Shown here piece by piece: positions 7,993 through 23,014 of a DNA stretch of 64,000 bases. Positions within the stretch are counted from its first letter, which is position 1. Each line of letters opens with the position of its first letter. The translations under genes were made by a program, and so were the position numbers. Origin of the DNA: Ralstonia pickettii (GTDB lineage Bacteria > Pseudomonadota > Gammaproteobacteria > Burkholderiales > Burkholderiaceae); the NCBI RefSeq assembly GCF_000607165.1, contig NZ_JFZG01000024.1, positions 558,001 through 622,000 on the forward strand, in the 5' to 3' direction. The notes beneath the pieces were generated by a model that was not told the DNA's origin, did not search any database, and was given only the letters and a program-made list of their open reading frames with translations.

Positions 7993-8234
7993 GTGTCGTC
8001 TCCTTGGGGCCGCCCTGAGCGAGCGGTCTGCGGCGCAGTGTAGGAGCGGTGTTTTCGGCACGATGTCTTCTGCATGACATTTGCTTCGTAAGGTTTCGCA
8101 AAGGGCAATCCTTATAGTTGTGACGCAGGCTGAACAAATCCGCGCCGTGGTTGTCGCACAAGGGCCGGCCGGCCCTTTCCCGGCGTTTCCGCCCCTCTCG
8201 TCTTTGAACCCGCCCCATTCCAATCCAGGACCGC

Positions 8235-20306: not shown

Positions 20307-21199
20307 CGTATTTCAACTGGCCCATCATCGAAACCACCATCTTTGCGGAGATGCCGGCCAGGCTGCGTCGCCCGGTGCCGACCGAATGGTCCCGCGCCAA
20401 CAAAGGCGGGGCGCCGGTCGACTGCTTTCTGGAAGGGCCGTGCTGGGATGCGCACGGCAATCTGTGGCTGGTGGATATTCCGCATGGCCGCATCCTGCGT
20501 GTTTCTGCGCAGGGCGACTGGGATGTGGTGGCGGAATACGACGGCGAACCGAACGGCCTGGCGCTGCGCCACGACGGCACGCTGCTGATTGCGGACTACA
20601 AGAACGGGTTGCTGTCGCTGGACTCTGCGACGGGCGCAGTCACGCCGTTCCTGACTCGCCGCAACAGCGAGCGCTTCAAAGGCCCCAATGATCTGATCGT
20701 CGCCCGCAACGGCGATGTGTATTTCACCGACCAAGGCCAGACGGGCCTGCATGACCCGACCGGCCGTGTGTATCGGCTGCGCGCGGATGGCCGGCTCGAT
20801 TGCCTGCTGGCGAATGGCCCGAGCCCGAACGGTTTGGTGCTGACGCCAGACGAATCCGCGCTCTTCGTTGCCATGACGCGCGACAACGCCGTTTGGCGCT
20901 TGCCGCTGCTTGCTGACGGCAGCACGAGCAAGGTGGGCCGCTTCGCGCAGTTCTACGGCACCAGCGGGCCCGACGGCATGGCGATGGACGCGGCCGGCCA
21001 CCTGTTCGTCGCGCATGCCTCGCTGGGCGCGGTGTTTGTCGTTTCGCCGCATGGTGAACCGCTGGCGCGCATCACGTCGTGCAAGGGGCGCACCACCACC
21101 AACGTTGCACTCACGCCAGACGGGCGCTCGCTCGTCATCACCGAATCCGCCACTGGCACTGTATTGCGTGCCCCCTGGTCCGCGCCGCACCACGACTGA
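20303..21199 (+). CDS. SMP-30/gluconolactonase family protein
   Basis: A 298-residue six-bladed beta-propeller. FLEGPCWDAHGNLWLVDI near residue 37 contains the metal-binding Glu, GPNDLIVARNGDVYFTDQ at about residues 130-148 supplies the Asn/Asp ligands, and SGPDGMAMDAAGHLFVA the third. The family hydrolyses sugar or other lactones with Ca2+ or Zn2+. The start overlaps the lyase stop (ATGA), making it the last gene of the operon, so the imported compound or an intermediate may be a lactone. Confidence 0.85.
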   Translation: MTYFNWPIIETTIFAEMPARLRRPVPTEWSRANKGGAPVDCFLEGPCWDAHGNLWLVDIPHGRILRVSAQGDWDVVAEYDGEPNGLALRHDGTLLIADYKNGLLSLDSATGAVTPFLTRRNSERFKGPNDLIVARNGDVYFTDQGQTGLHDPTGRVYRLRADGRLDCLLANGPSPNGLVLTPDESALFVAMTRDNAVWRLPLLADGSTSKVGRFAQFYGTSGPDGMAMDAAGHLFVAHASLGAVFVVSPHGEPLARITSCKGRTTTNVALTPDGRSLVITESATGTVLRAPWSAPHHD

Positions 21200-21233
21200 C
21201 GACGCACGTGGGCTGTTGGCGCAGCTCACGTTG

Positions 21234-21251
21234 TCCTACAGCTGTCCTACA
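21234..21251 (+). repeat. Two direct TCCTACA half-sites, 11 bp apart
   Basis: TCCTACA at 21234-21240 and 21245-21251, both preceded by TG. The 11-bp period is one helical turn, so a protein could bind the same face twice. Same box as the main array about 200 bp downstream. Confidence 0.6.
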
Positions 21252-21436
21252 CGAGGGGCGGCTGGCAGACCTTCAAAATTCCCGCGTTTTTTCCTTCCGC
21301 AGACGACCATGCGCCACTTCCTGCCGCGCTGCAAAAAAGGAAGTGCGTGGTCCGTCCTTTCCCACCCAGGCAAGTATGTTTCCTGGCCGAATTTTGTATC
21401 GATTAGAGATACGTGTCTGTTTTAGATAAACAAACA

Positions 21437-21554
21437 AGTAGGAGCTGTCCTACAAAATCGCCTTTCGACTGTAGGAGCGATCCTACAAAGTCGGCCGAAA
21501 GTCGGTCGGAACTGTCCTACACGGCGTGTAGGAGCGGGTCAGAAGTGTCCTACA
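21437..21554 (+). repeat. Phased array of TGTAGGA-N4-TCCTACA palindromes
   Basis: Right halves TCCTACA lie at 21448, 21481, 21515 and 21548, spaced 33, 34 and 33 bp. Left halves sit 11 bp before each: AGTAGGA (21437), TGTAGGA (21470, perfect), GGTCGGA (21504), GGTCAGA (21537). An extra TGTAGGA is at 21527. Each unit is an 18-bp palindrome with a 4-base spacer; the second has the spacer GCGA. As DNA it looks like a multi-site operator; as RNA each unit could form a 7-bp hairpin. Confidence 0.75.
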
Positions 21555-21755
21555 AGCGGTTAACCCGGCATCCGATGCTCACAGTCGCAGAAGTGCGACG
21601 CCTTCTTTGTCGATTTCTGACAACTTTAGGCAATTTAATTGCTATCTTTCGCCGTTAATTGGGGTAAATACGTGTCAAACACCCGCTTTAGCGCATCGTC
21701 CACCCAGGGCCGTTGCGTCGGCAAAGGCTTCATTTGCAACGTTTATTAACAGATT

Positions 21756-21774
21756 TGTAGGAAATTCGCCTACA
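21756..21774 (+). repeat. Isolated TGTAGGA-N5-GCCTACA palindrome
   Basis: TGTAGGA (21756-21762), AATTC, GCCTACA (21768-21774). One base off the array consensus and with a 5-base rather than 4-base spacer, about 200 bp nearer flhD. Confidence 0.55.
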
Positions 21775-22059
21775 AGAAAACGGACTACCTCACCCCTCCG
21801 ACGTAGGGGTCCCCCCTTCTTTACTTACCCCGGACGTAAACCCACAATGTGTTCAACAGAAAACAACTTCGCCATGTCTTTAGCGACGTGAGTAAGAAGG
21901 AGCAGGAGGTGCCGGCAACGGCGCCGACTGCAGGAACATCCGATCCGTGGGGATTGGTGAACAGCCCGGCGAGGGTAGGCGCAAGAAAATAGCGCCACCG
22001 GACATCACCATGCGAGATCGGATGCAAGTTGTACTTTTACTGCACACGACGGGACATAC

Positions 22060-22377
22060 ATGGACACGCAAGACATTGTTTCCGAGATCAGCGAACTGAA
22101 TCTCACCTACTTGATGCTTGCCCAGCAGATGCTGGCCAAGGATCGGGATGCCGCACTGTTTCGCCTCGGCATCTCTGAAGAACTGGCTGACATCCTGCTG
22201 ACGATGTCGCCCGCGCAGATCGTCAAGCTGGCCAGCACGAACATGATGCTGTGCCGCTTCCGCTTCGACGATCACGCCATCCTGGGTCTGGTGACCCAGC
22301 CGCACCGTGACAAGGGTCTGCAGCAATCGCAAATGTCGATCCTGCTGGCACGTCAGGCGGTTGAGCAGATCAGCTGA
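22060..22377 (+). CDS. flhD: Flagellar master regulator FlhD
   Basis: A 105-residue protein matching FlhD throughout (EISELNLTYLMLAQQML at the N-terminus, RLGISEELADILLTMSPAQI mid-protein). With FlhC it forms the FlhD4C2 activator of class II flagellar promoters, including fliA. The length is normal. flhC follows after 76 bp. The Shine-Dalgarno sequence before the ATG is weak (CGGGAC), which may leave room for post-transcriptional control. Confidence 0.95.
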   Translation: MDTQDIVSEISELNLTYLMLAQQMLAKDRDAALFRLGISEELADILLTMSPAQIVKLASTNMMLCRFRFDDHAILGLVTQPHRDKGLQQSQMSILLARQAVEQIS

Positions 22378-22453
22378 GCCATTTGCGGCGGCCTTTTCGC
22401 CGGGTTCAGAGATTGCACTTTGGATGAGTAGCAAGCGTAGCGGGAGCAGTGCC

Positions 22454-23014
22454 ATGCGTCACACCAGCGTCATGAACGAAGTTCAGCAGATCCACCTCGC
22501 AGCGGAATTGATTTCGCTCGGTGCGCGCCTGCAACTGCTGGAACAGGAAACCACGCTCAGCCGTGAGCGTCTGGTCAAGCTGTACAAGGAAATCCGTGGG
22601 GAATCGCCGCCCAAGGGCATGCTGCCCTTCTCGGCAGACTGGTTCCTGACGTGGTCGCCGAACATCCATTCGTCGATCTTCCTGAACATCTACCGTTTTC
22701 TGGGTGAGAACAGCCGCAGCACTGGTGTGCGCCGCCTGATCTCGGCCTACAAGCTGTACCAGGAACATATTCACGTTCACGAACAGGAAGAGGTGCTCTC
22801 AATCACCCGTGCGTGGATGATGCTGAAGTTCTTCGAGGGGAAAATGCTGCACACCGTGAAGTGCAAGCGCTGCACCGGCCATTTCGTGGCCCACGCAGAC
22901 GACCTGCACCATGATTTCGTGTGCGGTGTATGCCAGCCGCCGTCACGCGCAGGAAAGAAAAAGCGCGTCGCTGCTCCGGTTGATGCGATCGCAGAAAAGG
23001 CGGTCGACGCCTGA
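22454..23014 (+). CDS. flhC: Flagellar master regulator FlhC
   Basis: A 186-residue protein. The zinc site of FlhC is visible as CKRC and, 17 residues later, CGVC (about residues 137-160). SADWFLTWSPNIHSSIFLNIY is the conserved core. The start at 22454 has CGGGAG 8 bases upstream. It binds FlhD to activate flagellar class II genes. Two strong terminator hairpins follow (23233 and 23301), separating flhDC transcription from motA. Confidence 0.95.
   Translation: MRHTSVMNEVQQIHLAAELISLGARLQLLEQETTLSRERLVKLYKEIRGESPPKGMLPFSADWFLTWSPNIHSSIFLNIYRFLGENSRSTGVRRLISAYKLYQEHIHVHEQEEVLSITRAWMMLKFFEGKMLHTVKCKRCTGHFVAHADDLHHDFVCGVCQPPSRAGKKKRVAAPVDAIAEKAVDA

Follow-up and report, generated by a model that had tools for sequence, protein, structure and literature searches.

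The cluster of short inverted repeats upstream of flhDC in Ralstonia pickettii is probably a DNA operator for one dedicated flhDC regulator, with L115, a NarL/FixJ-type response regulator encoded in the flagellar cluster, as the candidate binder. This reading is built on sequence comparisons. The flagellar hierarchy is switched on by flhDC, an operon whose regulation is best understood in enterobacteria. Two kinds of sites are distinguished in the window, i.e. the whole stretch of 64,000 nt analysed here. A 19-bp palindrome, TGTAGGA-N5-TCCTACA, precedes flhDC in many Betaproteobacteria, and its Ralstonia copy is box P. In Ralstonia, palindromes with an N4 spacer (S1–S4) and outlying half-sites lie ~200–530 bp upstream of P. 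Comparisons across genomes mark P as the ancestral, promoter-linked site and the N4 array S1–S4 as Ralstonia-only. If the reading is correct, an operator, a promoter geometry and a candidate regulator of flhDC can be named for many Betaproteobacteria. It would also provide a case of a response regulator losing phosphorylation where its operator multiplied, of interest for the evolution of orphan regulators. Nothing relevant on the TGTAGGA/TCCTACA motif in connection with flhDC was found in a literature search from which subscription papers were mostly excluded.

The initial annotation had described six exact TCCTACA and three exact TGTAGGA boxes ahead of the flagellar master operon. All are found where reported (TCCTACA at 21234, 21245, 21448, 21481, 21515 and 21548; TGTAGGA at 21470, 21527 and 21756), and the reading frame starting at 22060 indeed matches Pfam FlhD. 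A further TGTAGGA in the 64-kb window, at 8039, lies away from the flhDC cluster. Right halves follow each other at start-to-start distances of 11, 203, 33, 34 and 33 bp, as expected from the 33/34/33 periodicity and the 11-bp tandem pair that had been claimed. The four 18-bp palindromes start at 21437, 21470, 21504 and 21537 and differ from TGTAGGA-N4-TCCTACA by 1, 0, 2 and 3 mismatches, with perfect right halves and left halves that are increasingly degenerate downstream. That the feature is not due to chance is borne out by nine exact half-sites in 600 bp (21200–21799), where 2000 dinucleotide-preserving shuffles average 0.049 and never exceed 2; none of the other 600-bp stretches tested in the window contains more than one. 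The equation of the spacing with three helical turns does not hold. At 10.5 bp per turn, 33–34 bp correspond to 3.14–3.24 turns of B-DNA, each of the S1–S4 sites is rotated by ~50–90 degrees relative to the one before, and a distance of 100 bp, or 9.5 turns, leaves S4 roughly on the face opposite to S1. Spacing of S1–S4 is conserved, but a shared helical face does not follow from it. The box at 21756 had been counted, but its N5 spacing and its ancestral, promoter-linked status had been missed.

Table 1. Coordinates of the flhDC upstream region in the window
Feature	Position	Strand	Evidence
Tandem half-sites TCCTACA-N4-TCCTACA, 11 bp apart	21234..21251	+	Sequence, 15 Ralstonia sequences
Box S1 AGTAGGAGCTGTCCTACA, N4 palindrome, 1 mismatch	21437..21454	+	Right half invariant 15/15
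Box S2 TGTAGGAGCGATCCTACA, perfect N4 palindrome	21470..21487	+	Left half invariant; TCCTACA in 15/15
Box S3 GGTCGGAACTGTCCTACA, degenerate left half	21504..21521	+	Right half invariant 15/15
Extra TGTAGGA left half-site, preceding the weak left half of S4 by 10 bp	21527..21533	+	Invariant 15/15
Box S4 GGTCAGAAGTGTCCTACA, degenerate left half	21537..21554	+	Right half invariant 15/15
Proximal box P TGTAGGAAATTCGCCTACA, N5 palindrome, 1 mismatch; ancestral betaproteobacterial flhDC box	21756..21774	+	
Possible weak second box, 30–31 bp after P	21806..21816	+	Position only
Inferred flhDC core promoter TTTACT-N17-CACAAT (-35/-10), start near 21855	21820..21848	+	
flhDC leader, predicted strongly folded RNA	21855..22059	+	
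flhD	22060..22377	+	Pfam FlhD, E 1.4e-42
flhC	22472..23014	+	Translation; relatives annotated flhC in plasmid collection

Upstream regions of flhD were aligned for 16 distinct Ralstonia sequences, 15 of which reach the array (L018 is excluded from the counts). In this alignment, a check that the initial annotation had proposed, the S1–S4 array is kept in 15/15 sequences, each with TCCTACA at all four positions. The intervals are 33/34/33 bp in 14 sequences and 34/33/33 bp in L019, where the right half of S2 is shifted by 1 bp (N5 spacer) and the shift is compensated before S3, and their sum is 100 bp in all 15. Invariant columns account for 7/7 positions in each of the right halves of S1, S3 and S4 (1/7 in S2, owing to the shift in L019), for 7/7 in the left half of S2 and in the extra half-site, and for 5, 3 and 5 of the 7 positions in the left halves of S1, S3 and S4. 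Linkers have 2/15 and 4/16 invariant columns, and the N4 spacers 0/4 in S1 and in S2, 3/4 in S3 and 2/4 in S4. Values for the flanks are 27/176 upstream (21255–21430) and 102/201 between S4 and P. Boxes that are kept while linkers drift are a signature of protein-binding DNA. The tandem pair is the least conserved part of the feature, with both copies at 11 bp in 9/15 sequences, a single copy in 4/15 and none in 2/15. Two other elements occur in the region. A conserved palindrome, GCAAT-TTA-ATTGC, is located between the array and box P (21630–21642); it reads GCAAT-AAT-ATTGC in three relatives, so that the palindrome is kept, and is perhaps the site of another regulator. A terminator-like inverted repeat, GTCGCAGAAGTGCGAC, with a T-rich stretch occurs downstream of S4 (21584–21599).

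In the 5.75-Mb genome, TGTAGGA-N4-TCCTACA is matched with ≤2 mismatches at 10 places and with 0–1 mismatch only at S2 and S1. Within the genus, a match at ≤1 mismatch is present in 15/16 genomes. Thirteen of them have two such places 33 bp apart, G012 has one (S1 there having two mismatches) and G013 has two that are 100 bp apart and correspond to S1 and S4, its S2 having an N5 spacer; flhD is downstream in all 14 loci taken from relatives. The sole exception, G002, is a fragmented genome in which the flhC contig (L018) ends 917 nt upstream, short of the array. Because counts are no higher than with a reversed-pattern control (10 versus 10 at ≤2 mismatches; 1–2 versus 1–2 per genome), the evidence is the location at flhDC and not the number of matches. 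These genome and genus scans, likewise proposed beforehand, confine the ≤1-mismatch palindrome to flhDC. Taken with an array kept in 15/15 sequences and linkers that drift, this argues for a multi-dimer operator, one of the readings offered by the initial annotation; of its other two, RNA hairpins appear unlikely and a REP origin is rejected.

Membership of the boxes in a REP-type repeat family was suggested by the resemblance of TGTAGGAGC to the edge of Pseudomonas REPs, but its probability is practically nil, since the palindrome at ≤1 mismatch is found at flhDC only and many dispersed intergenic copies do not appear in the genome and genus scans. Even the shorter pattern TAGGA-N4-TCCTA has just three sites in 5.75 Mb, two of them in the array; the third, upstream of an apparent fusA (by eye), overlaps a TATAAT and is taken as chance. 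Palindromes resembling TGTAGGR-N4-YCCTACA occur in g12 genomes (L139:1501-1518, L138, L140–L147), with an FNR-like cysteine motif, detected by pattern rather than by Pfam, nearby in 7/9 of the loci examined. Next to the palindrome in L139 are a histidine kinase and a response regulator with 60% identity to both L120 and L121. This N4 site of Burkholderia type, with its FNR-like neighbour, probably belongs to a different regulator.

The N5 box was found by scanning 80 flhC loci, among them 69 outside Ralstonia (L022–L090), namely 25 of Halomonas type (Halomonas, Vreelandella, Salinicola, Larsenimonas and Onishia) and 44 others, nearly all betaproteobacterial by title. With ≤2 mismatches, it is present in 31 of these 44 loci and in 0/25 loci of Halomonas type; the 13 without such a box are L040, L042, L043, L044, L047, L054, L070, L076, L077, L079, L085, L086 and L088. 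It usually lies ~480–540 nt upstream of flhC, and 570–730 nt in some groups. In 17 hand-chosen genomes, exactly one N5 box at ≤1 mismatch is found in 14, each coinciding with the flhC coordinates, and none in three, all of Cupriavidus type (g3). As the reversed pattern gives 0–3 matches per genome, here again the place of the match and not the count is the evidence. At ≤1 mismatch, the present genome has no N5 match other than P.

The distance from the box to a -10-like hexamer is nearly fixed. Of the 43 boxed loci (≤2 mismatches; the window, 11 other Ralstonia and the 31 others), 41 have a hexamer xAxAAT that starts 66 bp (8 loci), 67 bp (14 loci) or 68 bp (19 loci) downstream of the box, the misses being L029 and L039. 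A GGA-N5-TCC follows the box by 30–31 bp in 14/31 boxed loci outside Ralstonia and in 0/12 Ralstonia sequences. By these distances, the box would be centred near -90, and a second, weaker one would lie near -45. In Ralstonia, TTTACT-N17-CACAAT is kept in 16/16 aligned rows, and we infer that it is the flhDC promoter (21820–21848), with a start near 21855; a consensus promoter scan did not pick it up. A conserved reading frame ahead of flhD, beginning at 21848, was considered and discarded, as it overlaps the putative -10 hexamer and its frame shifts in some relatives.

The initial annotation had also envisaged a long flhDC leader RNA in which the palindromes form hairpins. S1 and S2 could fold, a terminator scan places a single terminator-like stem, on the minus strand, at S1, and the leader further downstream (21855–22059) is predicted to be strongly folded (z -4.70; none of 200 shuffles did as well) and to have an outer stem CATCCGATC/GATCGGATG. 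However, the putative start (~21855) is 300–420 bp and the putative promoter ~270–410 bp downstream of S1–S4, S3 and S4 have imperfect, poorly pairing left arms in the aligned species, and the fixed 33/34/33 spacing and the 11-bp half-site steps fit DNA, making this alternative very improbable. No Rfam match was obtained for 20800–22400 even at E≤5. Covariation in the leader was uninformative, the Ralstonia sequences being too conserved (1/53 pairs changed on both sides in any sequence).

For a DNA operator, the candidate binder L115 (G000:C10:45331-45963) is one of 29 GerE matches in the genome, the helix–turn–helix (HTH) regions of which were all read. It combines a Response_reg domain (E 3.9e-10) with a C-terminal GerE HTH (E 1.5e-16) and is encoded beside flagellin: fliC and then fliD are found on one side, and a PAS-GGDEF-EAL gene with fliM beyond on the other. 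Orthologs with 93–100% identity are present in all 14 Ralstonia of a 150-genome family sample, and flagellin is adjacent to the regulator gene in 14/14 Ralstonia and in G019. Read by eye, g11, g7, g16 and Nitrosovibrio also have flagellin next to the regulator gene, and in g18 the two are one gene apart; no flagellin was seen nearby in six stretches from g25, g21, g10 (two), g12 and g14. A narrow flagellin motif test gave 0/15 beside the regulator in loci of other genera (L170–L184), a test that was too narrow, as judged by a longer stretch from g11 with a flagellin-like gene ~0.5 kb away. In a hand-tabulated subset of genomes, the regulator lies within 100 kb of flhC in 26/37 same-contig pairs. 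In a tree of 26 rows, L115, G019, L170, L171, L183 and three proteins from Nitrosovibrio form one clade (98/97), and the recognition helix is of the KTVSVYR type (KTVSAYR in G019 and KTISVYR in G032). The plasmid collection contains no match to the regulator at E 1e-40. No half-site array occurs close to the gene for L115 itself in Ralstonia, nor in the stretches surrounding eight of this genome's regulator genes.

In the receiver of L115, EP replaces the acidic pair DD, S the phosphorylated Asp, G the switch Ser/Thr and M the Lys. These residues are lost in 14/14 Ralstonia and likewise, with other letters, in G019, whereas the receiver is intact in 9/9 other aligned relatives (L249, L252–L255, L258–L260 and L263). 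Compared with these nine relatives, Ralstonia L115 is 59–68% identical in the HTH and 27–38% in the receiver, which suggests that DNA binding was kept and phosphorylation lost. An adjacent HisKA_3 kinase is found in 8/8 neighbours scanned in relatives; in Ralstonia and G019, none was detected among six neighbours scanned and none by eye in the rest. G019 has a degenerate receiver but a single box with two mismatches, so the array would have arisen later or for another reason, and the coupling between receiver loss and array growth, as read from these sequences, is not strict.

Co-occurrence of box and regulator was examined in 47 non-Ralstonia family genomes with flhC (30 + 17, of 92 such genomes), with a box defined by ≤2 mismatches and absence of the regulator by no match at E≤1e-30 among 20 scored candidates. 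Both are present in 25 genomes and neither in 16 (13 g3 genomes, G024, G060 and G027); the regulator occurs alone in five, the box alone in none, and one genome is unassigned (G145, with a weak regulator match and a 4-mismatch site). These counts are phylogenetically non-independent, and the 13 Cupriavidus-type genomes may represent one loss. The recognition helix was read in 25/25 genomes with both. The regulator without a box, at the flhC copies examined, concerns G050 (3-mismatch site), G091, G136, G122 and G115; in the last four, which belong to genus g10, the box-less flhC copies are only 51–54% identical to the query. Assignment of g3 to Cupriavidus relies on 94% DNA identity between L287 and Cupriavidus sp. 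EM10, and the box is absent too from the flhC regions of EM10 and C. metallidurans CH34. The regulator was read in 6/6 Nitrosospira/Nitrosovibrio genomes. In Nitrosovibrio G156 the box is perfect, and among its seven GerE matches, all read, L212 is the sole KTVS-type protein.

These distributions bear on whether another NarL/FixJ-type regulator is the binder, chiefly the metH-linked L112, or L120/L121. L112 is the most UvrY-like of the regulators compared in this genome (41% identical to E. coli UvrY), and the N4 box has the same 18-bp geometry as the UvrY/GacA/SirA box TGTAAG-N6-CTTACA, which is reported to act from far upstream and at csrB is accompanied by an extra half-site TGTAGGAGA (PMC4682653, PMC8523701). 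A relative of L120/L121 adjoins the perfect TGTAGGA-N4-TCCTACA in L139, and the VsrAD and VsrBC systems are reported to act on FlhDC (PMC10653808). Yet Cupriavidus-type genomes keep L112 at 86–90% identity (read in 11/13; in G017 and G106 the ortholog was taken from the family-sample search) while a box at ≤2 mismatches is absent in 13/13, which argues against L112, and neither L112 nor L120 is represented among the seven GerE matches of the perfectly boxed G156. L112, once the second candidate, was demoted on the Cupriavidus evidence, and binding by a member of this group is rather unlikely. Compared with the UvrY/GacA system, in which an 18-bp palindrome likewise lies far upstream of the promoter, S2 reads TGTAGG-N6-CCTACA, with AGG for AAG, i.e. 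one position per half in an equal geometry; moreover, the target here is flhDC and, in the 26-row tree, the clade of the candidate binder is a separate one.

The RcsAB box, with its core TA-GGA/TCC-TA and a geometry matched by TAGGA-N4-TCCTA, is not known to include an outer TGT/ACA. Control of flhDC by an RcsB-like protein (L126, L127, L128 or L132), as in the enterobacterial Rcs system, was the first candidate, on account of this geometry and of the four RcsB-like regulators, which group with RcsB (99/98); RcsB is also the best PDB match of L126. Enterobacterial RcsB, itself of the NarL/FixJ type, is reported to control flhDC through a short palindromic site and, in E. coli, to bind a box in the flhDC promoter (PMC5829831). 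However, there is no RcsB-like protein among the seven GerE matches of boxed G156 (the reason for its demotion), the ancestral box is N5 and not N4, and the strongly conserved outer TGT/ACA is not a known part of the RcsB box, so an RcsB-like binder is highly unlikely. The present system differs further in that L115, if it is the binder, groups outside the RcsB clade, and in that an ancestral N5 box is combined with a Ralstonia-only N4 array, ~90 bp and more upstream of the putative start. BvgA of Bordetella recognizes heptads TTTCCTA and serves many promoters. The TCCTA core is shared, and N5 boxes such as TGTAGGAAATTTTCCTACA contain an inverted TTTCCTA; in contrast to the many BvgA promoters, flhDC is the target here, and the likeness is one of DNA sites.

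With L115 as the preferred binder, flhDC transcription would be set by dimers of this regulator that bind P and, in Ralstonia, fill the array cooperatively. In the relatives examined, with an intact receiver and an adjacent HisKA_3 kinase, the regulator would contact RNA polymerase directly, as the fixed box-to-promoter distance suggests, i.e. by activation. In Ralstonia, where the receiver is degenerate and no kinase is seen alongside, activity should follow the amount of protein instead of its phosphorylation, and the array would confer cooperativity and a threshold. From its flagellar-cluster position, L115 may be MotN, a known motility repressor. In R. solanacearum, MotN is named as a transcriptional regulator and a motN mutant is reported to be hypermotile (PMC7056806); negative regulation of FlhDC by MotN is reported as well (PMC10653808). 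If L115 is MotN, the system would constitute a negative feedback on flagellar synthesis. Fixed spacing suggests activation, the reported role of MotN repression. It is tempting to propose, as a tentative scenario that has less than an even chance of being right, that in Betaproteobacteria a two-component regulator of the flagellar cluster has the flhDC promoter as its sole strong genomic site, and that in Ralstonia this one-target regulator lost its phosphorylation and its kinase while its operator expanded from one box to some seven sites. Flagellar feedback through dose sensing would thereby have replaced a signal-driven switch.

Some neighbouring genes of these regulators deserve mention. 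The PAS-GGDEF-EAL protein that adjoins L115 and flagellin (L154:4843-7194, contig C10 of G000) makes a c-di-GMP link to flagellar control possible. Among the RcsB-like regulators, L128 (L151:2169-6503) is encoded beside a hybrid kinase of 1444 aa with SBP_bac_3 domains and L127 (L150) near pilus usher- and chaperone-like genes (by eye), surroundings that suggest several Rcs/Bvg-like systems.
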